Positions 5,334 to 22,516 of a stretch of 53,100 bases of DNA are shown one piece after another. This DNA comes from a virus. The stretch lies in IMG/VR virus record IMGVR_UViG_3300027985_001356, positions 1-53,100 of that record; one strand, 5' to 3'. How positions within the stretch are numbered: the stretch's first letter is position 1; every line of letters starts with the position of its first letter. The notes beneath the pieces were generated by a model, which was not told the origin of the DNA, did no database searches, and was given only the letters and a program-made list of their open reading frames with translations. The position numbers and the translations under genes were made by a program.

Positions 5334-5334
5334 G

Positions 5335-5478: not shown

Positions 5479-5484
5479 TCAATC

Positions 5485-5667: not shown

Positions 5668-5683
5668 AGATAGTCTAGGGATT

Positions 5684-5693: not shown

Positions 5694-5703
5694 CCGGCTC
5701 CTG

Positions 5704-6811: not shown

Positions 6812-6820
6812 GAGATGTTT

Positions 6821-7645: not shown

Positions 7646-8106
7646 AATTTCCATACCTCAACAACGACCCCAGGCTCAGGGCCTCGACCCTCTGTATCCT
7701 GCTTGGCCGGTGTATACTCATATTGCTTCACAGCCTCTATGCGAATCAATTGGCTGTCGTCCTCCCACACGTCGGCATCGGTCAAACTATCCTCACATGC
7801 GCGGACAAGTTTGGACAAATCTGGCTTCGTGATTTTTCCCTCTGGATACATTGAGCGACGATGGCCATTTTTGCGCAAATGAGAGCCTGGGATCGGAAAC
7901 GTAAACACGAACGAAGCACCAAGAGGCCCCACGAGCATCGTGAGCCCTTCTTTTTGCATAGCATTCTTCGCCACCATCGTGACTGATTTGCGCCAGGCTG
8001 CATGGCCTTTGGTGGTCTCGTAAAGTTTATGGCGCCTGGGGTCATAGCGATGATTTCCCTGGGAAACGGGGCAGCCGGGCACAGAGAATCGTAAAACTGT
8101 TTTCAT
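7642..8106 (-). CDS. rusA: RusA-type Holliday junction resolvase
   Basis: 154 residues from ATG 8106 (AGGG upstream, ATGA overlap with the previous gene). KPDLSKLVRACEDSL at residues 95-108 and VWEDDSQL at 113-120 carry the acidic residues expected for the RusA metal site (Asp96, Asp106, Asp117), although the usual KPDxDN is KPDLSK here. RusA enzymes are dimeric nucleases that cut Holliday junctions during phage recombination and DNA maturation. It lies in an operon with exonuclease and annealing protein genes. Confidence 0.88.
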   Translation of the reverse strand: MKTVLRFSVPGCPVSQGNHRYDPRRHKLYETTKGHAAWRKSVTMVAKNAMQKEGLTMLVGPLGASFVFTFPIPGSHLRKNGHRRSMYPEGKITKPDLSKLVRACEDSLTDADVWEDDSQLIRIEAVKQYEYTPAKQDTEGRGPEPGVVVEVWKL

Positions 8107-8360
8107 AGCAACCCTGCCAAAACAAAACCCATGACAACCCCGACTACAATATATCCTTTCGAAACACCCTCGGTGGATAATAACTGTCTCGTCCCGTTCC
8201 AGCATGCCCACTCGCTTAATTGCGCTCGTGTCATCCTCCAATGCTTGTTCGGATCAGGGCGCCATCCCCTATCTTTTGTTTTCCACGTGACCGGATTGAA
8301 TTTCGGCCGCAAGACAGTGGGCATAGACGCGGGTGTCAACAGCTTGAGGCTTGGTTGCAT
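8103..8360 (-). CDS. Small membrane-anchored hypothetical protein
   Basis: 85 residues from ATG 8360, with AAGGAA six bases upstream. A soluble Trp-rich part (WKTKDRGWRPDPNKHWRM) is followed by a C-terminal hydrophobic tail (GYIVVGVVMGFVLAGLL) that would form a tail-anchored membrane helix. Unknown function; its place between methyltransferase and resolvase suggests a role early in infection. Confidence 0.65.
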   Translation of the reverse strand: MQPSLKLLTPASMPTVLRPKFNPVTWKTKDRGWRPDPNKHWRMTRAQLSEWACWNGTRQLLSTEGVSKGYIVVGVVMGFVLAGLL

Positions 8361-8377
8361 AAGATGTTCCTTCCTTA

Positions 8378-9031
8378 TCAGCTTGTCCGCAGGATGACGC
8401 AATCTGTCGGTGGTGTTGCTGGTTCTACGTTGGTCCAAAATACTGCGCTATTGCCTGGGCATTCAGCAGGCTCTCCGTGTTTCCGTTCCTTGGTTTTCAA
8501 CTTGCCTTTGCGCTTGCCTGTCTGGTGGTACTTCGCTGGGATTGTCTCGCCTCCCCAAATAAATGAGATCCGATCTCTAGGCCAAATTAGCCAGCCTGGA
8601 AGGTGTCCGGGATGAGGCCTCAGGTGGCGGATTGATTCGATGTTGAATTGACACCATACAAAACGCATTCGACCTGCATGACGCTCTTGTTCGGCAAGAT
8701 ACTTCGCCCACCACCTCCTCCCCGATCCTCGCGAACCTGGATGATTGCAATACGTCACAGTCTCCCAACAGCTCTCTAAACCGCACAATCTCTCGGGTGT
8801 CCAATCAGTCGGACAGGGATCATAAACCCCATCAATGGGTGAACCAAGCGTCCTAGCAACCCAGTCCATCCACTCAGGCGGGGTCCACCAATCCGCAGAA
8901 TAATTCTGGTGACGGATGCTGATGTTTTCGGGGCCGGTTTTCTTTGTCATGAGTTTTTGCATCTTTCCGGGCAACCGCATCCGCTTTCTCAAGGACTCCG
9001 TATCCAACGGCACCTTTCTCATCTCGACCAT
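8378..9031 (-). CDS. DNA adenine methyltransferase-like protein (phage Dam type)
   Basis: 217 residues; ATG 9031 overlaps the loader stop (TGATG). ADWWTPPEWMDWVARTLG, YDPCPTDW, VTYCNHPGSRG and FVWCQFNIESIRHL resemble the phage DNA N-6-adenine methyltransferase family. In that family the catalytic motif is usually NPPYS or NPPGG; here it is NHPGS, with His for the first Pro. The enzyme would modify phage DNA, possibly against restriction. Activity is uncertain because of the altered motif. Confidence 0.7.
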   Translation of the reverse strand: MVEMRKVPLDTESLRKRMRLPGKMQKLMTKKTGPENISIRHQNYSADWWTPPEWMDWVARTLGSPIDGVYDPCPTDWTPERLCGLESCWETVTYCNHPGSRGSGRRWWAKYLAEQERHAGRMRFVWCQFNIESIRHLRPHPGHLPGWLIWPRDRISFIWGGETIPAKYHQTGKRKGKLKTKERKHGEPAECPGNSAVFWTNVEPATPPTDCVILRTS

Positions 9032-9702
9032 CACCCGCCCCTCCTATCGACATCGACAACAGATCTCCAGTTGGCCGATTCGCGAATCCTGGACAAGATG
9101 CGATGTCCATAGCGCTTACTGAACTCATCGGCATGCAGGTTCGTGGTTATAACTGTGCGCGCTTTCCTTCCTGCACAGAAATCAAATAACTCATCCAACC
9201 CAGAGATAAGCATCCCCTTTTTGTCCGCATACTCTGTCCCTAAATCATCCACGATAAGAGAGCTGGAGTTCTTCCATCTGCGTCGAAAGTCTTTATCGAA
9301 AGCCCCTGCGCCAAAAAATTCCGTCGCCCTCATAAAAAATGGAGACTTCCCCCCATGATCTCCTTGCCATCTCAAAGCTGCGAAAGTCTTCCCTGTCCCA
9401 GTTCCACCCGACAGGATTCTGATCTGTCTCTTGTCTTCCATGAACCCTTCCATCTGTTTCATGGCTTCACTGTTTGGATCGAAGGAATCCTCGTACACTC
9501 GCTCGCTGAGGAGGTCTGGCGCGTTTCCCTCTTGGAGGATGGTCGCACGCATCTCGTGTTCCCTTCTTGCCTGCTTTCGCGCTAACGCATCTCGCTGCGC
9601 TTGAACTTCCGCATCTCTAGCCTCCCACTCCTCATCTGTGAGTTGGGGGACAAGAACAGCTGGAAATAGCTGCTCCACACTGTCCGAAATAGGCTTACTC
9701 AT
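9031..9702 (-). CDS. DnaC-like helicase loader (AAA+ ATPase)
   Basis: 223 residues. Walker A GGTGTGKT at 99-106 and Walker B LIVDDLG at 149-155 are followed by sensor segment TVITTNLHADEF and an Arg-rich end, as in DnaC/IstB-like loaders. The N-terminal 50 residues form a charged helix. The start overlaps the upstream gene by four bases. It likely loads the host replicative helicase at the phage origin together with the organiser protein at 9699-10562; no phage helicase was seen. Confidence 0.9.
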   Translation of the reverse strand: MSKPISDSVEQLFPAVLVPQLTDEEWEARDAEVQAQRDALARKQARREHEMRATILQEGNAPDLLSERVYEDSFDPNSEAMKQMEGFMEDKRQIRILSGGTGTGKTFAALRWQGDHGGKSPFFMRATEFFGAGAFDKDFRRRWKNSSSLIVDDLGTEYADKKGMLISGLDELFDFCAGRKARTVITTNLHADEFSKRYGHRILSRIRESANWRSVVDVDRRGG

Positions 9703-10562
9703 AGCTTTACCTCTCCTCGCGGGTAAGAGTCGTGCGGATGCGGTTCTACTCGGCCAAACCGTACGTCATCATCCGCAGTCCTTTTGCCTTTGCGCTGCGA
9801 GATAGATATCTGGTCCCAGTTCCTGCGGAGACCTGTCGGAGATGAAATCACCCCTGACCAGAAGGTGTCCTCCAAGGCCCACGCGATCATATCCTCTATT
9901 GCTTCCCAGGAATGCTTATCTTGCTCATGCGCAATCCGGAGTTCGTCCGCCCACTTCAGCTCCCGCTTCGCACGCACAGCTGGCGCAAGCTTCGCCAGCT
10001 TGCCACCAGGAGCATTCGCGACAACCATGTCAGCAAGCTTCTTCGACAACCGGTGCGCATTGGCTGAGATTTTCGCGGGATCAAGAGATTTCTTTGGTTC
10101 CAACGTAGCATTATCACTTTGGTTACTGCCCGTAGTCTCCGTTTTGTTCCCGTCTGTTCCTTCGTTCCCGGAACGTTCGGAACCGTTCCCGTTTGTTTCG
10201 TTTTTATTTCTTTCTCTCCACTTACGTGTCCTCGGGGTACTCAGGTCGGAGAGGCGGTCCCATGATTTATCCCACCCAACGATTTCAATACCTTTGGGTG
10301 CGTGCGCGATCAGCCCAGCAAGTTGCGCTTTAGCGAGCCCCTCGGACATCAAGCGCTCACCTATGTCGCTCGCCTCGGTCAACAGCGTATAGCGGGCTAG
10401 GTACCTAGCGGACGACAGCTCATGAGGAACGAGCCCTGCGCAATTATGCGCCTTATTCAGCAACAGCAGATGCAGATAGGCTGTCGTTCCCCAGAATCCC
10501 GCGGCATCACATCTGGGGTCCTTTGGTAAGAACGCATTAATTTTTGCCCAACACGCGATCAT
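9699..10562 (-). CDS. Replisome organiser / replication initiation protein
   Basis: 287 residues from ATG 10562; GGGAGG and an ATGA overlap support this start over ATG 10574. The N-terminal part (WAKINAFLPKDPR, helical, winged-helix-like) precedes a low-complexity Asn/Thr/Gly linker (about 125-165). The C-terminal part (KWADELRIAHEQDKHSWEAI, WALEDTFWSGVISSPTGLRR) resembles phage O-like/DnaD-like replication proteins. It would bind the origin and recruit the DnaC-like loader encoded next. Confidence 0.8.
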   Translation of the reverse strand: MIACWAKINAFLPKDPRCDAAGFWGTTAYLHLLLLNKAHNCAGLVPHELSSARYLARYTLLTEASDIGERLMSEGLAKAQLAGLIAHAPKGIEIVGWDKSWDRLSDLSTPRTRKWRERNKNETNGNGSERSGNEGTDGNKTETTGSNQSDNATLEPKKSLDPAKISANAHRLSKKLADMVVANAPGGKLAKLAPAVRAKRELKWADELRIAHEQDKHSWEAIEDMIAWALEDTFWSGVISSPTGLRRNWDQISISQRKGKRTADDDVRFGRVEPHPHDSYPRGEVKL

Positions 10563-10804
10563 CTGGCCTCCCATGCCTTTTTCGTAAATGGGACTTTGCC
10601 TTTTGTCAGCTCAGCGATGGCCCAGCCTATTTTGATCCCAGGCCGAAAATCCCCAGTCGCGAGCGCATAGACCGTGGAGAGGCTGCATCCTAAGGCCTCG
10701 GCCACCTGAGCAGGGCTTTTGCTATGCTCCTGCATCCAGTTTCCAAAAGAAGTTTGCCAACTTCCCTCGCGGGGGTTGTAGCCTCTACGGTTTGATTTTT
10801 TCAT
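10559..10804 (-). CDS. Cro/CI-type HTH regulator
   Basis: 81 residues. PAQVAEALGCSLSTVYALATG at about 31-51 is a classic lambda-repressor-like HTH, followed by VPFTKKAWEAR. A basic N-terminus may also contact DNA. It heads the replication segment of the leftward operon, behind a gap with several inverted repeats that could be its operators. Too small to carry a dimerisation or cleavage domain, so Cro-like rather than CI-like. Confidence 0.85.
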   Translation of the reverse strand: MKKSNRRGYNPREGSWQTSFGNWMQEHSKSPAQVAEALGCSLSTVYALATGDFRPGIKIGWAIAELTKGKVPFTKKAWEAR

Positions 10805-10946
10805 CCTGCCCCCCCTTACTCACAAATCCCTGTATCACTGGAAATACAGTGCAGTCAAGAGTGGTTACAGGTAACAAAATATACTCAGTATAATTAAAAG
10901 GAAGTAGTCCTAACGATGTTCCACGTGCAACCAGAGCGCCTTGTTG
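10805..10946. promoter_or_regulatory. Operator/promoter region of the Cro-like gene
   Basis: No gene lies here. Three inverted repeats stand close together: CACTG-6-CAGTG (10838-10853), GTTAC-AG-GTAAC (10864-10875) and TATACT-C-AGTATA (10881-10893). On the minus strand TTGACT (10857-10852) is followed by a poor -10 (ATACAG or TACAGG) upstream of the HTH gene. On the plus strand TTACAG and TATAAT (10889-10894) are 18 bases apart. The region probably controls the replication genes. Confidence 0.5.
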
Positions 10947-11225
10947 TCAGAACGGCAAGTCATCAGTACTGGGGGGCACATCTGCTTTTTTCTCTGATGA
11001 AGGCTGAGAAGCCGACATCCCGGGGCAAGTTCCAAAATGGCAGTTATATCGGTCGCCCTCAGGTGAGTTTGGATAGGCCTTGTGCGCGATTGGGATGCCA
11101 TCTCCGAGATCTAGCCAGCAATCTCCATCCACTTTGGGGTCCTCATCCATTGCCATCCACTTATTATTTTTTGATTTTGCCCAGAAGATGGGCGCGGAGC
11201 ACTTGTTGCATGTTTTGATTTCCAT
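10947..11225 (-). CDS. Zinc-ribbon protein, paralogue A
   Basis: 92 residues. CNKCSAPIFWAKSKNNKWMA at 6-25 and HFGTCPG near residue 63 form a conserved small zinc protein: CxxCxxxIxWAxS, MxxDxxP, GxxxxxHxxTC. The gene at 14187-14549 encodes the same pattern (CKRCGSLILWARSK, HQETC). The family is common in phages; function unknown. A short Ser/Pro tail ends in DDLPF, reminiscent of the acidic tip of single-strand binding proteins that recruits partners. Confidence 0.8.
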   Translation of the reverse strand: MEIKTCNKCSAPIFWAKSKNNKWMAMDEDPKVDGDCWLDLGDGIPIAHKAYPNSPEGDRYNCHFGTCPGMSASQPSSEKKADVPPSTDDLPF

Positions 11226-11336
11226 CAGATTCCTCTCTGTGGTTCACAAAGTAGCATTATTACTTGACTCCTCCGATATCGACAGTGCCTTTGATGGTGA
11301 ACCACGACCAACGCACTGGGATGGAGATGTTTACGT
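11226..11336. other. 111-base gap with no confident gene
   Basis: On the minus strand one frame would give a 24-residue beta-rich peptide with no usable start codon, and another a short basic peptide beginning at the end of the annealing-protein gene. Neither is convincing. The sequence GAGAGGAA before ATG 11225 serves the zinc-ribbon gene. Confidence 0.4.
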
Positions 11337-12299
11337 CTAAGCATCTTTCACCTCCCCTGTCTCCGGATCGTGCCCAGGCTCCTTGTCCTTCTTGAGCTTA
11401 TCCTTGACGGCCTTAGTGCCTTTCGCGACGGGCTCAGATGGCGCCTTATCCTGATTCTTATGCTCAATCGTGGCCTGCCAGCTGGTCTCACCATCGCGGA
11501 TGGTCGTGTAGATTTGACGTAATTCTACAAGTTCACTGGGTGTAACCTTGCCCAAATCATGACCCAGGTACTCGGAGAGGTCCGCGGGGTTGATGTTTAA
11601 CTCTGCGAAGGCGTCCGCCAGGCGCCGCCTCTCGGCATCTGGGTCCTTAGCGGCCTGGTTACTGGCGGTCTTGCGAATCGCCTCCTCTGCTTCGTCTTGG
11701 AGCCACCCAGGGATCAGCCTGAGGCCATTGGTCCGGATTGCTTTAGAGACCAGCGCCCCCTGTTTGTTGAGAAGTTCATCGTCTGAGGCTCGGATGATGT
11801 AGACGGTTTGGCCATGGCTGCCTTTTCTCGTGCCCACGAGGTGTTGGCCCTGGCGGTGACTGTTTCGTTCTACGGTCTTTTGCACAGTGATTTGCGTCGT
11901 GTGGCTGGCGTTTCGCTGGTAGTCGGTGACTGTGACGGCGACGATCCGCTTTTCGTCATCGTCATAGACTGTGGTCTGGGACGATTTGATGTTTCCCATG
12001 ATCTGGATCGCTTGCTCGACGAACCGAATGGACAGGCCTTCGATGCCTTGCCCAATGGGCTTGCGATAGCGCGCGACTTTGGCGAAGGCTGGGCGTTTGC
12101 ATTCCCTGAGGAGCTCTGTGCGGACCTGGTCGAGGTTGCGCGGATTCTGCATGGCCATGAGGTAGCTGGCCTCTTCGGCCGCCTTAACGTGGGCTGCGAC
12201 GGCTGTGGCCGCGGTCTCGTGCATGGTGGTGATCTGCGAACCCTGAAATCCGTCTTGTTTGACGAGTGATACGGGTAGTGTTGAGTCGCTATTGTCCAT
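11337..12299 (-). CDS. Probable single-strand annealing protein (recombinase)
   Basis: 320 residues. The core has GLSIRFVEQAIQIMGN, a beta-rich stretch (TTVYDDDEKRIVAVTVTDYQ), and KQGALVSKAIRTNGLRLIPG. This resembles phage proteins with a GxSIRxxExxAxxxGNI motif encoded beside YqaJ exonucleases. The C-terminus is charged and disordered. Pairing with the exonuclease at 12468-13544 suggests a Red-beta/RecT-like annealing role, but it does not look like classical RecT, ERF or Rad52 sequences. The start overlaps the small gene upstream by 11 bases. Confidence 0.65.
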   Translation of the reverse strand: MDNSDSTLPVSLVKQDGFQGSQITTMHETAATAVAAHVKAAEEASYLMAMQNPRNLDQVRTELLRECKRPAFAKVARYRKPIGQGIEGLSIRFVEQAIQIMGNIKSSQTTVYDDDEKRIVAVTVTDYQRNASHTTQITVQKTVERNSHRQGQHLVGTRKGSHGQTVYIIRASDDELLNKQGALVSKAIRTNGLRLIPGWLQDEAEEAIRKTASNQAAKDPDAERRRLADAFAELNINPADLSEYLGHDLGKVTPSELVELRQIYTTIRDGETSWQATIEHKNQDKAPSEPVAKGTKAVKDKLKKDKEPGHDPETGEVKDA

Positions 12300-12471
12300 T
12301 CTTCATTCTCCGTTTAGTTCGTTCGAAAAGGTGATCATCCGTCTCCATCCATAAACCTTGCCACTTGTTCCAGGCGCAATGGTCGTTAGGCGCCTGTGCA
12401 GGTGGCGGGTCTCCGCCGTAGATTTCTCTGCATATTTTAGATTCTTCAAACTCTTTAAAAGGGTCTATCAT
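12289..12471 (-). CDS. Small hypothetical protein between exonuclease and annealing protein
   Basis: 60 residues from ATG 12471, overlapping the exonuclease stop (ATGA), with AGGAG eight bases upstream. Starts MIDPFKEFEESKICREI, ends with a basic KRRMKNGQ; two Cys and several Trp. Unknown; the position suggests a partner of the recombination proteins. Confidence 0.65.
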   Translation of the reverse strand: MIDPFKEFEESKICREIYGGDPPPAQAPNDHCAWNKWQGLWMETDDHLFERTKRRMKNGQ

Positions 12472-13544
12472 TTTCCCCAACTCCTAGGAACGTTGAAGGG
12501 ACGTGCGCCTGGCTTTGTTTTGGTGTGATCTTGTATTGCCTGATGCGCAACTCCCAAGAGCTGTCCAAACGCCGGGTCGTCTGCGACGCTGGCATTTAAT
12601 TCGATAGTATTCAAGAGCTCTTGATATGCTGCTTTCCAATCGATCTTCGTTGAATCCTTGTTCTTCTTCCAGGTGATGCGCTCAGGAACACCAGTCCCTG
12701 TTGGATTGATAATCCCCATTGCATCACCAATCGCTTCTTTGATTCGTTGTACTAGTCGTGCTTCTTTTTGCTCGAGCTCTTTCCGTTCCGATCTGGTTTC
12801 CCTGAGCACAGAGAGCACTTGGGATATCTCGGGTGTTGCCTCGATCATTCTCTGATCGTTTTTTGGGAACCGTCTGTTTAGGTAATCTCCATAGGAGTCC
12901 GAACCATCGGGCTCGAGCGGAATGCCTTCGATGATATGTTTCTGCCAAAAGGTTTTGGCTTTCTCGACCAACACTTCCTCAAGCTCTGGATCGCGCAGGA
13001 TGACATAGTCTGTTGGAACTCCATCGATGAACGCGGTCAAATCCCAACGAGTGATATCTGCATCGTAGTAGGCTCTGGCGACGTAGAGATTCCAGGCGCA
13101 TTGCGTAATCTCCCATGCGGGGACCTCATCCGTGCCAGGAGCGCCATAATGGTGTGAGAGCCATGATGCGTGGGTTTTGATTTCAAGACCGCTGACAGGA
13201 GGTGTTGAAGTTTCCACCGTTCCTTGCACGTGTATATTTTGCAGCATGAAGGGATAGGAAACTCCATCGGGGGTTGCTAGCGCCCATGGAATCTTTGGAT
13301 GCGACAAGGTCCCGGGGGTATCGATGGTGACTCCATGCCTTTGTGCGTAGTCATCCCTGATAGGGCCTTCCAGGAGATTGCCCCATTTGACCCGATCGGT
13401 TTCGACGAACGGCACACCTTCGCCCCTCTTATCTAATACGACATCGATAGCGCCCCCATAGGGACTCACGCCACAGATCTTCGCGATGTCGGTCGCAGTG
13501 ATGCCTTGTTGGCGTTGTTCGAGTTGCTTGTTGGTTAGTGCCAT
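12468..13544 (-). CDS. YqaJ/lambda-exonuclease-type recombinase nuclease
   Basis: 358 residues, GGAGGG before ATG. GITATDIAKICGVSPYGG, WGNLLEGPIRDDYAQ (Glu59), ATPDGV (Asp93) and LEIKTHAS (Glu121, Lys123) reproduce the YqaJ/lambda Exo active site E...D...ExK, followed by CAWNLYVAR. This family digests one DNA strand 5' to 3' and hands the single strand to an annealing protein. A C-terminal helical extension contains a charged coiled coil (about 255-285). Confidence 0.9.
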   Translation of the reverse strand: MALTNKQLEQRQQGITATDIAKICGVSPYGGAIDVVLDKRGEGVPFVETDRVKWGNLLEGPIRDDYAQRHGVTIDTPGTLSHPKIPWALATPDGVSYPFMLQNIHVQGTVETSTPPVSGLEIKTHASWLSHHYGAPGTDEVPAWEITQCAWNLYVARAYYDADITRWDLTAFIDGVPTDYVILRDPELEEVLVEKAKTFWQKHIIEGIPLEPDGSDSYGDYLNRRFPKNDQRMIEATPEISQVLSVLRETRSERKELEQKEARLVQRIKEAIGDAMGIINPTGTGVPERITWKKNKDSTKIDWKAAYQELLNTIELNASVADDPAFGQLLGVAHQAIQDHTKTKPGARPFNVPRSWGK

Positions 13545-13556
13545 CTATCCCTCCTG

Positions 13557-13751
13557 TTAGGTTTCACAAACGATTTCCATGCGGTGTGTTGGCCCGCAAC
13601 GATCACACTGGCAATAGAAACCTTCAAAGTCATCTGAGGCGTCCACGTCTGTGACTTCCTCGAATTCTGTTATCGCCGCTTCGCGATTTTTCCTGCCCAG
13701 TAGCAACAAGTACGAGTTCAATCTTGCGGGTTTTCTCAGCTTGAGGATCAA
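13557..13751 (-). CDS. Short Cys-containing frame, possibly the shifted end of the DUF7352-like gene
   Basis: The open frame runs from TTG 13751 to 13557 and overlaps the DUF7352-like gene by 122 bases. Only the part after about 13690 (REAAITEFEEVTDVD, then CQCDRCGPTH) looks like natural protein. There is no good independent start; GTG 13641 would give only 28 residues. One base removed from the five-A run near 13689-13693 would fuse it to the upstream gene. It may be a frameshifted C-terminus or a small zinc protein. Confidence 0.4.
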   Translation of the reverse strand: MILKLRKPARLNSYLLLLGRKNREAAITEFEEVTDVDASDDFEGFYCQCDRCGPTHRMEIVCET

Positions 13752-13926
13752 GTTCTACCCATACTGCGGGCATGGGACGGCCATCGGACATACCAGATGA
13801 GAAATCCCCAGCATCCATCCCTGCATGCACAAAACGGTGATGCTTTGGAAGGTGGATGACGCAAGAACTCACAGGCTGAGCAATGCGCCATTTCCAGATG
13901 ACGTTTTTTTCTCTCTCAGTTGGCAT
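13630..13926 (-). CDS. DUF7352-like protein
   Basis: 98 residues. VIWKWRIAQPVSSCVIHLPK, then PAVWVELDP and IELVLVATGQ match the DUF7352 pattern of small phage proteins (WKxxL...MPxGA...LWxxVDP...TG). The last 20 residues (from EKSRSGDNRIRG) are strikingly Arg-rich and unlike the family, while another frame over the same bases reads acidic and natural, so a frameshift is suspected. Function unknown. Confidence 0.65.
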   Translation of the reverse strand: MPTEREKNVIWKWRIAQPVSSCVIHLPKHHRFVHAGMDAGDFSSGMSDGRPMPAVWVELDPQAEKTRKIELVLVATGQEKSRSGDNRIRGSHRRGRLR

Positions 13927-14182
13927 CCGTCTGATGTCCTAACTCGATAACCCCTGCGCTGTAGTCGATATCGACGATCTGGAGCGGAGGTAGAAAATCC
14001 TTAACAGGAATACGATTCCCCCCAACGACACAATGAGGGGGCATCTCAAGGACCATGCCCACCTTCAAGAGTCTTATGAGTGCAGGTTCCTCGATTAGGA
14101 GTTCGATTGTCCCTCGGCACGTCATCCTCATCGCGAGAACCGCCACCGCCTCACTGGCATCAAACACGGGTATTTTTGTCAT
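13916..14182 (-). CDS. Hypothetical protein
   Basis: 88 residues, GAGGGTG upstream. The fold appears beta-rich (GTIELLIEE, GMVLEMPPHCVVGG, PPLQIVDIDYSAGVIEL). It overlaps the DUF7352-like gene by 11 bases. No motif known. Confidence 0.7.
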   Translation of the reverse strand: MTKIPVFDASEAVAVLAMRMTCRGTIELLIEEPALIRLLKVGMVLEMPPHCVVGGNRIPVKDFLPPLQIVDIDYSAGVIELGHQTDAN

Positions 14183-14186
14183 CGCA

Positions 14187-14549
14187 TCACCCTCTTCTTT
14201 TTTTGTCGTGGTTTATTTGCCTTTGCAGCTGTCCGAGTCTGCGCTCATTTCGCTCGAATTCCCTTTCTTCTTCGGTCTTTGGCTTGCAGGTCTCCTGGTG
14301 ACACTGCAACCGGGGAATCTCTGGATCTTCTCCCTCATCCACCCTTGCGATAGGCGCATCCTTACCCCTGTACAAAACGTGTGTTCCCGCCTGGCTTGGT
14401 TTTGTGTCCATAGGCATCCAGTTCCCAAGCTTGGATCTAGCCCACAAAATCAGTGAGCCACAGCGCTTACAAAGCGTCCGACGGAGATCGCGGAGAGATT
14501 CAATCGGCACCCCCTGCACCTGCTCTAATCCTCCTTTTTTCGACGCCAT
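14187..14549 (-). CDS. Zinc-ribbon protein, paralogue B
   Basis: 120 residues; first gene of the leftward DNA-metabolism operon, with AGGGGG six bases before ATG. CKRCGSLILWARSKLGNWMP, MDTKP and LQCHQETC match the product of 10947-11225, with an added N-terminal basic segment and a long charged C-terminal helix. Paralogy by duplication within the phage or by independent gain cannot be separated. Confidence 0.8.
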   Translation of the reverse strand: MASKKGGLEQVQGVPIESLRDLRRTLCKRCGSLILWARSKLGNWMPMDTKPSQAGTHVLYRGKDAPIARVDEGEDPEIPRLQCHQETCKPKTEEEREFERNERRLGQLQRQINHDKKRRG

Positions 14550-14640
14550 CTTTGACCCCCTATTCCGTTTTCAAAAATACGCATTTTGATACCCCCACCC
14601 TCCTCGCAACATGCTGGAATAAATAGGGAATCACATTGAA

Positions 14641-14670
14641 AATGTCCGAGCTCACCACAATAATGTCCGA
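14641..14670. repeat. Two direct repeats AATGTCCGA, 21 bases apart
   Basis: AATGTCCGA at 14641-14649 and 14662-14670. The 21-base period equals two helical turns, so a protein could bind both on one face of the DNA. They lie upstream of the leftward operon and could be operators or iterons. Confidence 0.5.
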
Positions 14671-14709
14671 TGAATCGCATTTCCGACGCTTGAACATCTC
14701 TCATAATCC

Positions 14710-14725
14710 TTCAACTTTTGTTGAA
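14710..14725. other. Perfect hairpin TTCAAC-TTTT-GTTGAA
   Basis: A six-base-pair stem with a four-base loop. On the plus strand it is followed by ACCTGC and six T, weakly like a terminator; it could also be an operator. It lies between the direct repeats and the TTGACA box. Confidence 0.35.
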
Positions 14726-14892
14726 ACCTGCTTTTTTCTGCTTGATATCATAGGTGTATTCCAAAAACCTACCACCTGCCCTTGACACGGATCGCGAGCC
14801 TTTTTACCCATTAAAAGCATGGTCTTCGACCATTGTTGCAAAAGCACTTGTTACAAAAACAATTTGCCAATCAGGGACTTTCAAAGTGTCAC

Positions 14893-15003
14893 GTGGGGGG
14901 CCGGCTTCTTGGGCCACCACAGCCAGCCCGGCAACTGAGGGCGTGGTCTTTCCGAGCGCAGCGAAGGAAACGGGATGCCCGCAGGGCTTTCTTTTGCTTG
15001 TAA
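14893..15003 (+). ncRNA. Possible structured RNA core
   Basis: A GC-rich block with local complementarity: GGGC/GCCC arms around CACCACAGCCA, ACCAC pairing with GTGGT, TTTCC pairing with GGAAA around CGCAGCG, and finally GCCC-GCA-GGGC followed by TTTCTTTT, terminator-like on the plus strand. A TTGACA box lies at 14782-14787, but its -10 (TACCCA) is weak. Transcription as an RNA is inference. Confidence 0.25.
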
Positions 15004-15200
15004 ACACAAACCACAACTTCAAATCACGCTTGGCTGTTTTTGGCGACAAACTCGCCCATGCCATCAGCCCAAGGATACAGAGACTGCTCTCCTCCTTCTC
15101 GCTCCGCTCGATTTCGGACTCGCGTCTCATACTCCAAACGCTAGCACAAAGTTTGACTATTTCCCAGTGCTGCTGGAAAAACTGTGATAGGGTTTGACGT

Positions 15201-15530
15201 ATGAGTGGCAGGGATGAGTGGTCGCAGGAGATCGCAGCTGACGTCGACGCGAGGACAGTCGATGTCTCTAGCTGTTGTGACTGGCCAGCGGAGTCCAAGG
15301 CTTCCTGCATTGAGTATTTGATGCTCGTGCGAACGACCTATGAGAAAATATGCCTAACGCACGACGTTTTGGGAAGCCAGGGCATTTGCGAGAGCTGCGC
15401 GAGGGAGAAGCAGTTGTTGACTATCGCTTTCGCAAATCGCGATCTGAGGTACTGGGATATGGTTCTATGCGTACCCTGTGTTGGCGTCCTGTTTGACTCT
15501 AACAAGGGAGGGTCACATGACCCCACTTAA
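15201..15530 (+). CDS. Cys-rich hypothetical protein
   Basis: 109 residues. Contains CC near residue 26, then CLTHDVLGSQGICESCAREK and VLCVPC, a zinc-binding layout of the treble-clef sort seen in DksA-like or HNH-associated knuckles. It is the first rightward gene after the non-coding island; TGATAGGGT ends seven bases before the ATG and may be an extended -10 giving a leaderless mRNA. AGGG could alternatively be the ribosome-binding site. Confidence 0.65.
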   Translation: MSGRDEWSQEIAADVDARTVDVSSCCDWPAESKASCIEYLMLVRTTYEKICLTHDVLGSQGICESCAREKQLLTIAFANRDLRYWDMVLCVPCVGVLFDSNKGGSHDPT

Positions 15531-15559
15531 TGATATGCTCCCTGTGATCTCATGGGGGG

Positions 15560-15889
15560 ATGGCCACAATGAAGGTAAGCGCTCAGCGTCTATTCCAGAC
15601 ATTTGTGCATATGCTGCCCTACGAGCTCGATCAAAAACAGCTCGAGATTTTCAGCCTACTTTGCGAGGCGATCGAGCTAGAGATCGAGCAGGGTCACTTG
15701 CAAGAGCAACGTCGCAATCGCAAAGGAACTATTCATGATGCGACCATCCAAAAGGTGCTCGAGCTCGATCTGGACTCAGAGAGCATCCCTCAGCCTTTGT
15801 TTGAAGATGCAGACACCTCACCCATCTGCAGGCATTGTGGCAAGCCATGCGAAAGGCTGGGGGTGTGTGAGGATTGTGGGATTGGGTGA
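15560..15889 (+). CDS. Hypothetical protein with C-terminal zinc ribbon
   Basis: 109 residues from ATG 15560; ATG 15569 fits the GGGGGG ribosome-binding site better. The first 55 residues are helical and charged, and the C-terminus CRHCGKPCERLGVCEDCG is a clear four-Cys zinc ribbon. Likely nucleic-acid or protein binding; unknown role. Confidence 0.7.
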   Translation: MATMKVSAQRLFQTFVHMLPYELDQKQLEIFSLLCEAIELEIEQGHLQEQRRNRKGTIHDATIQKVLELDLDSESIPQPLFEDADTSPICRHCGKPCERLGVCEDCGIG

Positions 15890-15892
15890 AGT

Positions 15893-16135
15893 ATGACCGA
15901 CGAATTTGAGGACGAATTTGAGAAGGCAGATCCATGCAAAAGATGCAACTCTACGAGCAAAGTATACGTTGCCAGCATGTCGTATTACGGAATCTGGGCG
16001 AAGTCGCCAGCGTATCTTGCGCCAGAGCCTGCTTTGGCGTGGGTCGAGCGGAAACAGTTTGATTCTCGTCCGGTCCGCCATTGCGTACAAGAACTCATTG
16101 TGCATGACAAAGACTGTCCGGGTGATACGGGATGA
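15893..16135 (+). CDS. Small Cys-containing hypothetical protein
   Basis: 80 residues. An acidic N-terminus (DEFEDEFEKADPC) leads to CKRC, and the C-terminus has C and HDKDC, so a CxxC...C...C zinc site is possible. Three bases separate it from the preceding stop. Function unknown. Confidence 0.65.
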   Translation: MTDEFEDEFEKADPCKRCNSTSKVYVASMSYYGIWAKSPAYLAPEPALAWVERKQFDSRPVRHCVQELIVHDKDCPGDTG

Positions 16136-16358
16136 GCAAGCGCAGCGATTGTTAAAGGGGATACGTTGGTTCTGAAACAGGAGTTTCCAGGATTGCTGTG
16201 GACATTTTAGACGGATAGGCAGCAGGTCTCTTTCCCATCGGGGCTACATGCAAGAGCACTACCCACGGAGAATGCCCTTACCACCCAACCAGTCATGATT
16301 CTGGCAGCCTGCCACCTATCCGGAGGCACTATTGCCCATGCGGATCGCCGCTGCAAGC
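16136..16358. other. Gene-free gap with a long imperfect inverted repeat
   Basis: No open frame with a credible start lies in these 223 bases. The main feature is the inverted repeat 16213-16226/16308-16321 described separately. Confidence 0.5.
16213..16321 (+). ncRNA. Candidate structured RNA element
   Basis: GGATAGGCAGCAGG (16213-16226) pairs with CCTGCCACCTATCC (16308-16321) at 12 of 14 positions, leaving a symmetric two-base internal loop. Inside, CTCTT (16228-16232) pairs with AAGAG (16252-16256). A long closing stem around an 81-base interior suggests a folded RNA or a protein-binding cruciform. No promoter or terminator is obvious. Confidence 0.3.
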
Positions 16359-16553
16359 TTAGACTTCCTCATCCTCCACATCCCTCAACGTCATCGAGAG
16401 CCTGATTTCAACGATGCCATCCAACCAGTCCCCGTTCTCATCCTTTGGGGTGAAAACATCAACATCTGCCGATAGATAGGAGTCGTTGAAGGCAGCGGCC
16501 ATCATCTTTTGGAGGTTGTACATGAAGTAGGAGGCTTCGCGTTTTTGTCTCAT
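16359..16553 (-). CDS. Small acidic hypothetical protein
   Basis: 64 residues on the strand opposite its neighbours. The composition (SADVDVFTPKDENGDWLDGI, then RLSMTLRDVEDEEV) looks like a real folded protein, but there is no good ribosome-binding site before ATG 16553. It might be a regulator of the late operon or an accessory gene inserted between two rightward genes. Confidence 0.5.
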   Translation of the reverse strand: MRQKREASYFMYNLQKMMAAAFNDSYLSADVDVFTPKDENGDWLDGIVEIRLSMTLRDVEDEEV

Positions 16554-16639
16554 ACTTAGTGCGCGCTACTTTTTTAGGGCGGATCGCTACCTCGGAGAGG
16601 TGATATGCTACGTTCCCGCTACCTAAAGGAGGTCCCTCA

Positions 16640-16879
16640 ATGATTCCGCACTACTTGCTGGTCAAGGCTGTCGATGGGGATGGTTACAGGACGATGCATG
16701 CCGAATTTTGCCCGTTCAAGATTCCGGAGAATATCTGCTTGGGCATGTATCCGAGTCTAGAACGGGCCATTCAAGAGGCGGAGCTGTTCCATGACAAAAT
16801 CAGGGTTTGCCATGTGTGCGCGTCGCTGAGGTCCCATTATGAGGACATGGACTACGAGACCTATGTTGAAGATTCCTAG
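16640..16879 (+). CDS. Hypothetical protein upstream of terminase
   Basis: 79 residues with a perfect GGAGGT ribosome-binding site. TGATATGCT at about 16600-16608 could be an extended -10 promoter. The protein contains CPF, CLG and CHVC, with acidic C-terminal YEDMDYETYVEDS. Unknown; it immediately precedes the terminase promoter. Confidence 0.7.
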   Translation: MIPHYLLVKAVDGDGYRTMHAEFCPFKIPENICLGMYPSLERAIQEAELFHDKIRVCHVCASLRSHYEDMDYETYVEDS

Positions 16880-16893
16880 AAAAGGCCTATAAT
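16866..16893 (+). promoter_or_regulatory. Late-type promoter for terminase, -10 adjacent to ATG
   Basis: TTGAAG (16866-16871) and a consensus TATAAT (16888-16893) are 16 bases apart. The start codon of the terminase small subunit lies nine bases after the box begins its end (eight-base gap), so the mRNA would begin about two bases before ATG. No Shine-Dalgarno is present. Confidence 0.6.
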
Positions 16894-16901
16894 TATTTGA
16901 C

Positions 16902-17297
16902 ATGTCGAGTGCTGATGGCAGCAAGAATCTCCAGCCGGAGAGGCCGAGAAAGAGAAAGCCAACGCCTGCGTCGTGGAAGAAAGGCCAGAGTGGCAATCCG
17001 GAAGGACGCAGGAAGGAGATTGGTCATGTCCGCGAGCTAGCTAGGCTCTATACCGAAGATGCTATGAGCGCTTTGGCGGAGATTGTTAGGGACAGCAGCG
17101 AGAACGCCTCAGCTCGCGTACGGGCTTGCGAGGTCCTTTTAGATAGGGGCTGGGGGCGCCCGCCGGCTGCCCTTGAGCTCACGGGGTTCGATGGCGGACC
17201 CATCCTTTTTGAGGAGGCTCAGAATGAACTCGAAAGCATCCTTGATAGCATCTCTGTCCGATGCCGAGAGGAAAGCCTGGGTATCGAGCCTCACTAA
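16902..17297 (+). CDS. Terminase small subunit (DUF5681)
   Basis: 131 residues. ASWKKGQSGNPEGRRKE at about 24-40 is the DUF5681 signature, often the DNA-binding part of small terminases; a helical region (ARLYTEDAMSALAEIV, ARVRACEVLLDRGWGRP) follows. It recognises the packaging site and positions the large subunit. The start lacks a ribosome-binding site and is probably leaderless. Its 3' end overlaps the large subunit by 74 bases. Confidence 0.85.
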   Translation: MSSADGSKNLQPERPRKRKPTPASWKKGQSGNPEGRRKEIGHVRELARLYTEDAMSALAEIVRDSSENASARVRACEVLLDRGWGRPPAALELTGFDGGPILFEEAQNELESILDSISVRCREESLGIEPH

Positions 17298-18549
17298 AGA
17301 GCAGGCGGCTGCGCTTCGATGGGAATGGGCGTTTTTTGCTAGGCCCGAACAGCTGGCGCCCGAAGGGAATTGGGACACTTGGTTAATTCTTTCCGGCAGG
17401 GGTTGGGGTAAGAGTCGGACGGGCGCGGAGTGGGTCCGCTCGCTTGCTGAGTCTGGCAAGGCAAAGCGGATTGCCTTAGTTGGTGCAACGGCTGCGGACG
17501 TTCGCGATGTGATGATCGAGGGCGAGAGTGGCATTATGTCGATATGTCCTCCTTGGGATCGGCCTCTCTATGAGCCCAGCAAAAGGCGTATCACCTGGCC
17601 TAATGGTGCGATGGCGACAGCGTACAGCGCAGATGAGCCAGACAGACTCCGTGGGCCTCAGCATGATGCGGCCTGGTGCGACGAAATTGCAGCATGGCGC
17701 TACGGGGAGGCCTGGGACCAATTGCGCTTCGGTCTACGCTTAGGCGATAGACCTCAAACCGTGGTCACGACAACTCCAAGACCAACGCAGATGATACGCG
17801 ATCTAATCAAGCACAAGACCACCGTTGTTACGAAGGGTTCTACCTATGACAACAGGATGAATCTTGCCCCGACATTCTTCAGCCAGATCATATCTAAGTA
17901 CGAAGGGACACGGATAGGAAGGCAGGAGCTTCATGCGGAGCTTTTGGATGATGTCCAAGGGGCACTGTGGCAGCACGCTGATATCGATAAGTGTAGAGTC
18001 TCTACTGTCCCCTTGCTACGCAGGGCCGTTGTGGCAATAGACCCTGCCGTAACAAGTGGTGAGCATTCGGACGAGACAGGAATTATCGTTGCTGGCATCG
18101 ACGAGAAACGCCAGGGTTACGTCATTGCCGATCTGAGTGGGCAGTATTCCCCCGGGGAATGGGCCAAGGTGGCGGTGGATGCGTATTATAAATACGATGC
18201 AGATCGGGTTGTTGCCGAGGTGAATAATGGCGGCGATCTGGTTGAATTCACCCTTCGGACGGTTGCTCAAAACGTTAGCTACAAAGATGTTCGTGCAACG
18301 CGCGGGAAGTTTACCAGGGCTGAGCCGATCGCCGCGCTATACGAACAGCATAAAATTCATCATGTTGGGATGTTTGCCAAGCTTGAAGACCAGATGTGCA
18401 CCTACGTTCCAGGGGGCAAGTCCCCCGATCGGATGGATGCTCTCGTGTGGGCATTCTTCGACCTCATCGTCAAGGAGGAGTCGTTTTCCATTGGCACATT
18501 TGGTAGCTCGGTGTTTTCCACGGGGTTACGTAATGGCAGACACGTGTGA
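17224..18549 (+). CDS. terL: Terminase large subunit
   Basis: 441 residues from ATG 17224, with GAGGAG eight bases upstream. The ATPase has Walker A SGRGWGKSRTG at about 57-67, a DEIAAW Walker B region (WCDEIAAWR), and a TTTPRPT coupling segment. The C-terminal nuclease has VAIDPAVTS near 270, EVNNGGDL and SPDRMDALVWAF. It cuts concatemers and drives DNA into the prohead as the packaging motor. Confidence 0.95.
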   Translation: MNSKASLIASLSDAERKAWVSSLTKEQAAALRWEWAFFARPEQLAPEGNWDTWLILSGRGWGKSRTGAEWVRSLAESGKAKRIALVGATAADVRDVMIEGESGIMSICPPWDRPLYEPSKRRITWPNGAMATAYSADEPDRLRGPQHDAAWCDEIAAWRYGEAWDQLRFGLRLGDRPQTVVTTTPRPTQMIRDLIKHKTTVVTKGSTYDNRMNLAPTFFSQIISKYEGTRIGRQELHAELLDDVQGALWQHADIDKCRVSTVPLLRRAVVAIDPAVTSGEHSDETGIIVAGIDEKRQGYVIADLSGQYSPGEWAKVAVDAYYKYDADRVVAEVNNGGDLVEFTLRTVAQNVSYKDVRATRGKFTRAEPIAALYEQHKIHHVGMFAKLEDQMCTYVPGGKSPDRMDALVWAFFDLIVKEESFSIGTFGSSVFSTGLRNGRHV

Positions 18550-18637
18550 ATAATGGCCTGATAACAGTGCCATAGACTGAGCAAGTTGGTAACGTAGGGG
18601 GGATGCTCGGGGATACAAGGAAAACTGGGGGTGCTTC
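18550..18637. other. 88-base gap between terminase and portal
   Basis: No gene and no clear promoter or terminator. The G-rich end (ACTGGGGGTGC) supplies a weak ribosome-binding site for the portal GTG. Confidence 0.4.
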
Positions 18638-20230
18638 GTGAGTCTTGCCAAGGTACACAAACAAGAGCCCAGCAAGGTTCGCCCCTTGGATGTTTTAGGA
18701 TCTACAGGGCTAAAGCACCACGCGGGAATCATAGACGAGGAGTTTCTTACTCGACTGCGTGGCGAGAACGCGATCAAGACCTATCGCGAGATGGTCCACA
18801 ACAGCCCCACGATTGCGGCTGCTCTCAATGCAATCAAGATGCTTATCGGGCAAGTCAAATGGCGGGTTGAGCCTGCTGATGAATCGGATGCTGCTATTGC
18901 AGAGGCGGAGGACACGGAATCAGCGCTCGAGGATATGAGCCACACCTTTTCGTCCTTCGTGAGCGAAGCACTCTCGATGATCTGGGCAGGATATGCGCCG
19001 TTTGAGATTATCTATAAGCTTCGTCGAGGGCCAGACCAAGACGATGCGTCACTCCGCAGTAAGTTCAATGATGGAAAGTGGGGCTGGCGCAAGGTTGAGA
19101 TCAGAGGGCAAGAGACACTCTCTAACTGGGTCTTTGATGATGAGGGTGGTCTTAACGGGATGGTGCAATGGGATACGCATGCACCCCAGACAGGGTCTGT
19201 CTTTATCCCCATTGATAAAATGCTCCTGTTTCGCACGAGCACGTTTAAAAATAACCCAGAGGGCCAATCCATGCTTAGGCCCGCGGTTATCCCGTATTGG
19301 TTTACCAAGCGTATCCAGGAGTTCGAGGCAATCGGGATTGAGCGCAACTTGGCCGGGATGCCCATCATGGAGGTTCCTCCCGAAATTCTAGTCGCAGATG
19401 CATCCGCAGAGCATAGGGCTACGCGCACCTTCCTTGAACAGTTCGTCACTCAGGTGAAGATGGATGAACGATGGGGTGGTCTTGTTCCCAGCGAGCTCAA
19501 GCCCGACGGCTCGCCTAGCGGATACAAGTTCAAACTGATGCAGTCCTCTGGGCGCAAGCTCGTGGACACAGACATCATCATCAAACGTTACCGCTCTGAG
19601 ATGCTGATGCTGTTCATGGCGCAGTTTTTGGTCATGGGGACCGAAAAGGTTGGGTCCTTCTCGCTGTCGAGCAACATGACCGCGATGTTTGGCACGGCGC
19701 TTGGGGCGATTATGGATAATATCGCCGATACCGCGAATCGGTTCCTGATCCCTAGAAGGCAGAGGCTCAACAAGAGACCTCAAGAGCTAGATCCTGTACT
19801 TGTCCATGGAGACATTGAAGGGCCTGAGCTCGACAAGGTCGCGGCCTATATCAACCAACTCGCGTCGGCAGGGATGATTGGTCCAAATCCTGCGCTCGAG
19901 CGAAAGCTGATGGAGATTGGCAACCTGCCCCAGCCCGAGGAAGATGAAGAGGTGCCCCCGGCCCTGTCTGAGAACACGATCAATTCGACGGGTCGCCAAT
20001 CCCTCTCTGCAGATCAGGTAAAGGCCATGATGGAAATCCTAAGGGCCCTTAAAGGGGGCTTGCTCGATAGGCCATCTGCCATCATGGCGCTATCAGCTGC
20101 GCTAGGGATTAGCGAAGAGCAGGCGGAGGGGTTTATTCCGGCAGAACCCGAAGATCCTCCTCAGCCTGAAACAATATTGCCCTCGCCTGAGGAGATTGCA
20201 GAGTTGGCCGTCGAGGATGAGAATGAGTAA
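18638..20230 (+). CDS. Portal protein
   Basis: 530 residues from GTG. ENAIKTYREMVHNSPTIAAA, ALSMIWAGYAPFEIIYK, RTSTFKNNPEGQSMLRPA and FTKRIQEFEAIGIERNLAG match the portal family related to Mu gp29/DUF935. The dodecameric portal is the DNA entry ring and binds terminase. The C-terminal 100 residues are acidic and Pro-rich, likely flexible. Confidence 0.92.
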   Translation: MSLAKVHKQEPSKVRPLDVLGSTGLKHHAGIIDEEFLTRLRGENAIKTYREMVHNSPTIAAALNAIKMLIGQVKWRVEPADESDAAIAEAEDTESALEDMSHTFSSFVSEALSMIWAGYAPFEIIYKLRRGPDQDDASLRSKFNDGKWGWRKVEIRGQETLSNWVFDDEGGLNGMVQWDTHAPQTGSVFIPIDKMLLFRTSTFKNNPEGQSMLRPAVIPYWFTKRIQEFEAIGIERNLAGMPIMEVPPEILVADASAEHRATRTFLEQFVTQVKMDERWGGLVPSELKPDGSPSGYKFKLMQSSGRKLVDTDIIIKRYRSEMLMLFMAQFLVMGTEKVGSFSLSSNMTAMFGTALGAIMDNIADTANRFLIPRRQRLNKRPQELDPVLVHGDIEGPELDKVAAYINQLASAGMIGPNPALERKLMEIGNLPQPEEDEEVPPALSENTINSTGRQSLSADQVKAMMEILRALKGGLLDRPSAIMALSAALGISEEQAEGFIPAEPEDPPQPETILPSPEEIAELAVEDENE

Positions 20231-20627
20231 AGCGCTGCCTCAGATGGACTTTGATACCATGGCTATTGCCGCCGAATATTGGGGGCTAAGCGTCTCATGG
20301 TATCAAAGGTTTTTTTGGACGAGAAAGCGACTTCGCAAGGCTATCGGGTCTGCGATTCGGTGCCATGGATCGTTAGTAGGAACTGACGAGCATATTGCCA
20401 ATGTGCTTAAACGTGCATGTGTCGGGATTCATAGTGTCATCGTAACAACGCCGGAGGCGGGCAAGGTTAGTGTTCATCTAAACCACAAATGGTGGGCATT
20501 CTTTTGGGCGCGCAAGAATAAGCGATTGGCCGCTTCGGCTGATATATATCCAGCAGGTATCAGAGTCCAGGTGACGAGCTGGAACCACGAACGGCCCTCC
20601 GAAGGAGCTAGCAGTGTCAACCCTTGA
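20223..20627 (+). CDS. Hypothetical basic protein between portal and MuF genes
   Basis: 134 residues from ATG 20223, with GAGG seven bases upstream and an eight-base overlap with portal. Many Trp, Arg and Lys (YWGLSVSWYQRFFWTRKRL, NHKWWAFFWARKNKR). No motif. It starts a block of small genes inside the head module that is not needed for a minimal capsid cluster. Confidence 0.65.
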   Translation: MSKALPQMDFDTMAIAAEYWGLSVSWYQRFFWTRKRLRKAIGSAIRCHGSLVGTDEHIANVLKRACVGIHSVIVTTPEAGKVSVHLNHKWWAFFWARKNKRLAASADIYPAGIRVQVTSWNHERPSEGASSVNP

Positions 20628-20787
20628 TGATACCAAGAAGCAGTTGGAAGAGGCGCGCGCGATAGCTGCTGTCCTTGCCCATTGTTATGACAATGACAAT
20701 CGGCCTCCGTTCCATATGCTTGAACGGGCTAGGCGGTGGCAACATAAGTCAAGGAGCAGCGACGATGGACACGAAAGCCTCCTCTAA
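20614..20787 (+). CDS. Small hypothetical protein
   Basis: 57 residues from GTG 20614 with AAGGAG six bases upstream. Begins VSTLDDTKKQLEEARAIAAV, helical, with one Cys and a basic MLERARRWQHK segment. It overlaps both neighbours (14 and 23 bases), typical of the compact block. Unknown. Confidence 0.6.
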   Translation: MSTLDDTKKQLEEARAIAAVLAHCYDNDNRPPFHMLERARRWQHKSRSSDDGHESLL

Positions 20788-20929
20788 CGTCGCCAAGGTC
20801 TGCTATTTCTGCCGCACGCAGTTCGATGCACTGGACAAGCATTGGTCAAACGCGCCAGTGAGCCCAACAGAGCGGGGCAATGTTTGTGTTAACTGTCACT
20901 ATAAGGTGACAGGCGGGGAGCTGCGGTGA
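20765..20929 (+). CDS. Small zinc-finger protein
   Basis: 54 residues from ATG 20765 (AAGGAG eight bases before). CYFC and CVNC separated by about 26 residues form a zinc ribbon. The frame is longer upstream, but the ribosome-binding site and the preceding gene favour this start. Confidence 0.65.
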   Translation: MDTKASSNVAKVCYFCRTQFDALDKHWSNAPVSPTERGNVCVNCHYKVTGGELR

Positions 20930-21159
20930 AAATCTTCACAGGCAAAACCATTCTATATATTGGCGAAGATGACTCCTTCAGGGAGAAGCGTTGTCATATC
21001 TGCAAAGCGAGCAACCCCCTTCATGCCGTGGTTGGCGTCCGTAATACCCATGAGGATTCAGAACACTTTGGCAAATGGCACGTCTTCTGTGGTGATAAGA
21101 TTGTTTGGCTGAGCCAGGAGGAGATTGATCGGGACTTTGTTGAGGTGAATGGGGGATGA
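20926..21159 (+). CDS. Small Cys/His protein
   Basis: 77 residues from GTG (GTGA overlap; GGGGAG upstream). RCHICKASNPLHAVVG and HVFCGDK give CxxC...H...C, a possible zinc site. Unknown function. Confidence 0.65.
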   Translation: MKIFTGKTILYIGEDDSFREKRCHICKASNPLHAVVGVRNTHEDSEHFGKWHVFCGDKIVWLSQEEIDRDFVEVNGG

Positions 21160-21162
21160 ACA

Positions 21163-21360
21163 GTGGCAACCAAGCCTAAAGAGTCGCACTGGGGCGAAGA
21201 TGTTCCCACGTTTGACGCGGCATTCTACAAAGAGTGGCTAAATAACGAATTCAAGCGTGGCATGCGCGACATGCTCGCCAATGCTTTATGGGAAGACGCA
21301 ATAGTTCAAGCAGACGTGGACAGATATTTGGACCAATGGCGCAAGGTTGAGGGAGAGTGA
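21163..21360 (+). CDS. Small hypothetical protein
   Basis: 65 residues from GTG with GGGGGATG upstream. The protein is helical (FYKEWLNNEFKRGMRDMLAN, VDRYLDQWRKV). It abuts the next gene exactly. No motif recognised. Confidence 0.65.
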   Translation: MATKPKESHWGEDVPTFDAAFYKEWLNNEFKRGMRDMLANALWEDAIVQADVDRYLDQWRKVEGE

Positions 21361-21546
21361 ATGTTTTCTGAGAATTATTGCTTGTGCGTGAATCAGTGCG
21401 AACAATGCGGGGCCTGCTGCAGGTATGAGTGCGAGCATCGCGGCTCCCACATAAGGACGCTCTCGACAACATCCGACAGCATTGGTTGCGTGGTCGAGTC
21501 ACTAACATCAGACAGGTGCATCCTGGATGCATCGGGCTCCCAGTGA
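21361..21546 (+). CDS. Small Cys-rich protein
   Basis: 61 residues. CLCVNQCEQCGACCRYECEH packs eight Cys into 19 residues near the N-terminus, suggesting a metal cluster or tight zinc knuckle. GGAGAG lies before ATG. Its end overlaps the MuF-like gene by 20 bases if that gene starts at 21527. Confidence 0.65.
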   Translation: MFSENYCLCVNQCEQCGACCRYECEHRGSHIRTLSTTSDSIGCVVESLTSDRCILDASGSQ

Positions 21547-22516
21547 CATGTCCCTGATCACCAAAGCGAACCGTCGCGTCAAACAGCCCGCATGGCAACG
21601 TGGTCTTAAAGTCCCCGACAAAGAGCAACGAGACGCATTGGCAATCACGGCCAATCACGAACAGAAGTTCTCGCGTGCGTTTCTGAAACTTCTCAGAGAT
21701 CTGCTCACCCCCGACATGCTTAGGCAGATTGGTAAACTGGTGAGATCTGATCTGAGGCCAAACGAGATCATCGATCAAATCCCCTTCTTCGACCCAGACA
21801 ATCCTAAGACCTTCGCCATCTGGCAGGGGTTCGCGCACAAAATGGAGGGGGTCTACACTAAGGTAATTGAAGAATCCGTCCAGAATGAAAATCGTAAGCG
21901 TGGCTGGAAAGTGGACGTGTTCAAGGTTGAGGCGCCAGAGCTGCCAGCGAATGCAACCCCTGCGGATTTCGTGCGAATCAGGTCGCTTACGCGCGTGGTC
22001 GATATTTCGGACAAGGAGAGGGAGCGAATTCGCGAAATCCTTATCAGGGGGCTCGAGCGTAGGGTGGTTCCATCGTCGATGATCGAGGAGATAGAGGACA
22101 CCGTGGGGCTTACTGTTCTACAGGCAGCCCGTGTGGAGCGTAGAGTTGCGGCTGCCGCGGCCGTAGGGGCCAAGGGCGACCAACTACGCAAGATACGACA
22201 GGACCTAGCCGCGGGGCTCAGGAGACAGCGAGCACGTACTATCGCTAGGACCGAGGCCAACGATGCAATATCCCGAGGTCTCACTGAATCGTGGAAGCGT
22301 GCGGCTGATGCAGGTCTGAGCCCGCCTGGAACAAAGAAGCGTTGGGTTGCCATGGCTGGAGATGATCGAATTAGCGAAATCTGCGAGGATCTGGATGGGC
22401 AAGAAGTGGGATTGAATGAGAATTTTTCATCAGGGGCAGGTGAAGGGTTCACGGGGGAAGGGCCTCCTGCTCATCCTAATTGCAGATCTACTATGGTGCT
22501 GGTGTTTCCATCATGA
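21527..22516 (+). CDS. MuF-like minor head protein
   Basis: 329 residues from ATG 21527 (AGGTG upstream); ATG 21548 is an alternative. RTIARTEANDAISRGL at about 233-248, KRWVAMAGDDRISEICEDLD and GEGPPAHPNCRSTM are hallmark segments of the Mu F / SPP1 gp7 family, minor capsid proteins attached to portal and sometimes injected. The helical N-terminal 130 residues probably contact the portal. No extra C-terminal toxin domain. Confidence 0.9.
   Translation: MHRAPSDMSLITKANRRVKQPAWQRGLKVPDKEQRDALAITANHEQKFSRAFLKLLRDLLTPDMLRQIGKLVRSDLRPNEIIDQIPFFDPDNPKTFAIWQGFAHKMEGVYTKVIEESVQNENRKRGWKVDVFKVEAPELPANATPADFVRIRSLTRVVDISDKERERIREILIRGLERRVVPSSMIEEIEDTVGLTVLQAARVERRVAAAAAVGAKGDQLRKIRQDLAAGLRRQRARTIARTEANDAISRGLTESWKRAADAGLSPPGTKKRWVAMAGDDRISEICEDLDGQEVGLNENFSSGAGEGFTGEGPPAHPNCRSTMVLVFPS

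Follow-up and report, generated by a model that had tools for sequence, protein, structure and literature searches.

The largest intergenic gap of a myovirus-like phage genome is probably an ordinary divergent promoter or leader region

The intergenic island of the phage genome analyzed here, which lies between two gene sets read apart, is probably an ordinary divergent promoter or leader region of a myovirus-like phage. The window, i.e. the whole stretch of 53,100 nt that was analyzed (Table 1), begins and ends with the same 144 bases in direct orientation (1-144 = 52957-53100), which indicates that the genome is probably complete and circularly permuted. The phage is myovirus-like, given the genes for portal, tail sheath, tape measure, and baseplate proteins found with PHROGs and that for the large terminase subunit (terL, named from annotated matches). 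In the reading that we favor, leftward transcription would start in the AT-rich left half of the island and run into the early set, rightward transcription would serve a short run of small genes of unknown function (15201-16135), and the terminase and structural genes would have a separate promoter, at terS (start at 16902, named by position); a 45-aa leader ORF may lie at the left end of the island as well.

The early set, on the minus strand left of the island, comprises small genes and genes for RecE-like and RecT proteins, an HTH protein, an O/DnaD-like initiator, a DnaC-like loader, and a RusA-like resolvase. The gene at 11337-12299 (PHROG 3657, function unknown) is the one we take to be RecT, from its place beside RecE and from the character of the family. 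On the other side, the three small plus-strand ORFs probably form one short operon; no family was found for them and their coding scores are weak. By eye, the proteins of 14187-14549 and 10947-11225 (-) are similar (CxxC, then W-A-K/R-S-K ... W-M-x-M-D) and are perhaps paralogues. The gene at 1018-2178 (-), on the early strand, has its match in PHROG 349, a family of virion structural proteins (E 2.6e-16). The 787-aa product of 22634-24997 (+) matches, in its C-terminal part, PHROGs annotated as DNA methyltransferase and as head maturation protease, the first of which names seems to be mistaken. Finally, a 64-aa minus-strand ORF amid the plus-strand part (16359-16553), with a strong coding score (4.43) and no family found, forms another divergent junction together with 16640.

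Table 1 Coordinates of the island, of its candidate elements, and of the genes and sites discussed with it
Feature	Position	Strand	Remark
Whole window	1-53,100		53,100 nt; IMG/VR record IMGVR_UViG_3300027985_001356
Initiator gene, O/DnaD-like	9699-10574		DnaC-like loader gene adjacent
Seven GGAAC/GTTCC copies within 93 bases	10097-10189		Linker of the initiator gene; iteron-like array
Cro/C1-like HTH gene	10559-10804		3.7 kb from the island
First minus-strand early gene	14187-14549	-	Small Cys-containing protein, PHROG 5984 (unknown function), E 2.3e-7
Intergenic island	14550-15200		651 bases between divergent gene sets
45-aa ORF	14560-14697	-	Candidate leader ORF just before the early set
AT-rich stretch	14561-14760		May hold the promoter of the minus-strand set
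Sigma-70-like site TTGAAA-17-AATAAT	14636-14664	+	Candidate promoter of the plus set 15201-16135
16-bp dyad TTCAAC-TTTT-GTTGAA	14710-14725		Candidate operator or leader hairpin
Open minus frame	14804-15130	-	Possible lineage-specific gene; coding score 1.97
Two TTGTTnCAA copies 15 bases apart	14833-14856	+	Candidate operator half-sites
Three small plus ORFs	15201-15530, 15560-15889, 15893-16135	+	From the ORF list
Promoter-like site TTGAAG-16-TATAAT	16866-16893	+	Candidate, directly before terS

The island is bounded by ORF starts at 14549 (-) and 15201 (+) and is the largest gap in our hand-made gene list, the next being 380, 225, 223, and 213 bases long. This agrees with an earlier note on this DNA, which had described a non-coding island of 650 bases where two operons diverge. 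The AT-rich part and the GC-rich core reported in that note are equally real: the 200 bases from 14561 contain 60.5% A+T, compared with a genome mean of 47.9%, and in 200-base windows only a stretch near 50500 equals or exceeds them, while G+C reaches 57% in the 200 bases from 14881.

We infer that the island holds a promoter, because the minus-strand set beginning at 14549 needs one and the island is the only free DNA before it. Its left half, one of the genome's most AT-rich parts, and the presence of one sigma-70-like site are consistent with such a role. Nevertheless, promoter-like sites are no commoner than chance, with one found in the island against 0.7 expected (none on the minus strand at that threshold) and six against five genome-wide. 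The island is also long for promoters alone, at 651 bases. The plus-strand flank, 15201-15530, which is read away from 14187-14549 (-), has a weak coding score. A further promoter-like site precedes terS, and the nearest relative by terL and portal, a 5.2-kb IMG/VR contig (L002; 69% identity in terL and 79% in portal), carries TTGAAA-16-TATGAT at the equivalent position, which suggests that the terminase and structural operon has its own promoter, independent of the island. The early set and the three small plus ORFs would then be all that the island serves. The weight of this site lies in its position and its conservation in one relative, because such sites occur at chance frequency genome-wide. 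Only 8 bases separate the end of its -10 element from the ATG of terS (16866-16904), and the terS message may be leaderless.

Relatives were sought at the level of both DNA and protein, and no close one turned up in the collections searched. Megablast of 10000-22000 against 50,697 phage records gave no match, and 14400-15600 gave only 11 short matches to them (2% coverage, E 1 or worse), which we take as chance; plasmids gave no match. Among viral contigs, the RecE and 14187-14549 proteins found no relatives, RecT found one (L082, 66%), portal two, and terL 206, of which 80 were kept and 27 of these examined for junctions; a profile search of genome contigs with a RecT alignment found none. 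The island is retained in none of the relatives, so that conservation is shown for no part of it. Junctions from minus to plus strand are nevertheless common upstream of terL, occurring in 23 of the 27 relatives, the other four having none in the available sequence. Their gaps range from -23 to 613 bases, five of the 27 exceeding 300, with genes called by ORF length only. By this comparison, the size of the island is ordinary for the gap at a divergent junction, if at the top of the range.

In L002, a minus-strand gene likewise diverges from the terminase side, but the junction is short and lies directly at terS, whereas the window has about 2.3 kb extra (14550-16900), the island included; the 403 bases before terS in L002 had no blastn match in the window. 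In L082, the early genes recur in unchanged order, co-directional with the preceding lysin gene. The early module of the window (800-14549) thus shares the gene order of L082 and has the opposite orientation relative to the lysin gene, so that no island is expected in L082.

Divergent early promoter regions are known from tailed phages, for example the pL/pR region of lambda. As there, two gene sets leave an AT-rich gap, with recombination and replication genes on one side. The window differs in that no repressor gene was found in or next to the gap, in that it has no recognizable operator array, and in that a separate promoter apparently serves its structural genes. For a lysogeny switch of the CI/Cro type, we found neither an adjacent repressor gene nor operator repeats beyond chance; the only HTH gene recognized is the distant Cro/C1-like one, and none of the 37 distinct proteins compared with PHROGs was recognized as an integrase. 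The proposal of a genetic switch therefore holds in so far as we favor a divergent promoter region, and fails with respect to a flanking repressor, an integrase, and dyads above chance.

Repeats that might act as operators were compared with shuffled sequences. The TTGTTnCAA repeats noticed earlier are indeed concentrated here, two of the three genome copies lying in the island (14833 and 14848) and the third at 48450, and they may serve as half-sites. The 16-bp dyad, which may be an operator as well, has a single genome copy at up to 3 mismatches, and such dyads occur at chance frequency. What had been called phased repeats comes down to one 9-mer pair, AATGTCCGA, at 14641 and 14662, and equally many close 9-mer pairs occur in 43 of 300 shuffles; the repeat search found no direct or inverted repeats of 12 or more bases in the island, nor a direct repeat family of 11 or more (seed 7). 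Perfect hairpins with arms of at least 6 number three (14571-14589, 14710-14725, and 14819-14833), a count reached in 32 of 200 shuffles, and none has arms of 7 or more, so the several perfect hairpins of the earlier note are not above chance. Inverted repeats with arms of at least 5 are more frequent (13 against 5.6 expected; 3 of 200 shuffles reach 13). Of the features that had been noticed in the island, only its base composition and this slight excess of 5-base inverted repeats go beyond chance.

The GC-rich core and the few short hairpins could also point to a structured small RNA or leader. The Rfam covariance-model search that had been recommended was run on the whole window and gave no match at the gathering score, the sole match below it being to a human-type family (E 0.2, 15.6 bits against a cut-off of 65). 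Folding energies are ordinary, all z values lying between -1.8 and 0.6 (whole island, -1.2 on the plus and -1.8 on the minus strand; GC core, 0.25 and 0.13). From these two results we rejected an RNA gene, and a structured RNA in the island is highly improbable.

The replication origin of the phage is another function proposed for the island, to which the AT-rich part and the minimum of the cumulative GC skew would fit. The skew check does place this minimum at 15165, but the signal is confounded, because gene direction switches at that point and the skew follows it here. All 512 5-mers were scanned for local clusters, which corrects for our having picked GGAAC after seeing the linker repeats. 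The strongest cluster of the genome is the GGAAC/GTTCC array of the initiator gene (P 1.8e-9, compared with 1.2e-7 for the best of 20 simulated genomes), whereas the best cluster of the island ranks 24 of 512, and neither GGAAC nor iterons are found in it. In the positive control, the lambdoid phage ev207, the O-gene cluster (CCCTC, 38285-38352) ranks first for 5-, 6-, and 7-mers; in the initiator gene of the window, GGAAC and CGGGAAC rank first among 5-mers and 7-mers, respectively, and the best 6-mer only ninth. Two of the seven copies are inverted, and the Gly-Asn-rich linker accounts for part of the array, because five of the seven share one codon phase, the other two lying in other phases. 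The initiator gene of L082 has no matching top cluster, the best GGAAC clusters of that contig lying elsewhere, so this one relative does not confirm the origin claim for the initiator gene.

The initiator matches lambdoid O proteins, and the origin of lambda lies inside O, with 19-bp iterons and an adjoining A-T-rich part (PMC4488673). The window resembles this arrangement in its O/DnaD-like initiator with an adjacent loader gene, and differs in having its iteron-like cluster in the initiator gene rather than in the island, which contains no initiator-binding repeat array and lies 4 kb from that gene. Judged from these word clusters, the array in the initiator gene is more likely than the island to be the origin, which would be of the lambda type. 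On the iteron scan and the ev207 control, we rejected an origin in the island, which we regard as very unlikely.

Part of the island might instead be coding. Two long frames overlap it, 14804-15310 on the minus and 14754-15197 on the plus strand, and an equal openness on both strands was reached in only 2-4 of 500 shuffles, for three slightly differing stretches. The description of the island as non-coding is thus right in that it holds no recognized gene, and is qualified by these frames. The minus frame, open for 168 codons, is matched in length in 12-40 of 500 shuffles, and its more than chance length speaks against the reading of the island as a promoter and leader region. With a periodic Markov model trained on 39 genes, it scores 0.28 in full and 1.97-2.98 depending on the start, above 94-97% of spurious ORFs; at 1.97, from the ATG at 15130, 4.8-6% of spurious ORFs are as good (n = 104 for 4.8%) and 12.8% of known genes are no better. 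The neighbors counted as genes score lower (-1.01 for 14187-14549 and -1.40 for 15201-15530), so this statistic cannot decide. Three ATG starts tested in the frame all lack a Shine-Dalgarno sequence, whereas 19 of 27 known genes have one with four or more matching bases.

Homologues of the minus-frame product were absent from PHROGs, Pfam, NCBIfam, PDB sequences, the 50,697 phage records, and IMG/VR contigs, and from the 80 terL loci; the best matches, below threshold, had E 0.069 in Pfam and E 0.6 in PDB sequences. A conserved protein in this frame, which the earlier note had named as evidence against its island, is rejected, no homologue having been found in these collections; the coding statistics are nevertheless compatible with a gene. 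A lineage-specific minus-strand gene filling the right two thirds, in the frame ending at 14804 with a start near 15130 or 15064, would explain the openness of the frame and a score that beats most spurious ORFs as well as the neighbors; given the missing homologues and Shine-Dalgarno sequences, we hold it to be rather unlikely. If it were true, the real gap would shrink to about 70 bases on the right and about 250 on the left.

The 45-aa ORF at the left end has an ATG start with AAGGA 7 nt upstream and ends 10 bases before the start of the early gene. A comparable ATG-started ORF near the gap end occurs in 4 of 400 shuffles, in a post hoc test, and its coding score is weak, 16.6% of spurious ORFs being as good. 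We find it doubtful that an undescribed lineage-specific product, either an orphan protein from the minus frame (14804-15130) or a regulatory leader with this 45-aa peptide, controls the early set.

The divergent promoter or leader region that we favor is what would be expected of the largest gap at the early gene junction of a compact phage genome, and it is of little import alone. The analysis has, however, two by-products: it gives the origin a testable location within the initiator gene, and it points to a promoter-like site at terS that is conserved in L002 and would separate the structural operon from the island.
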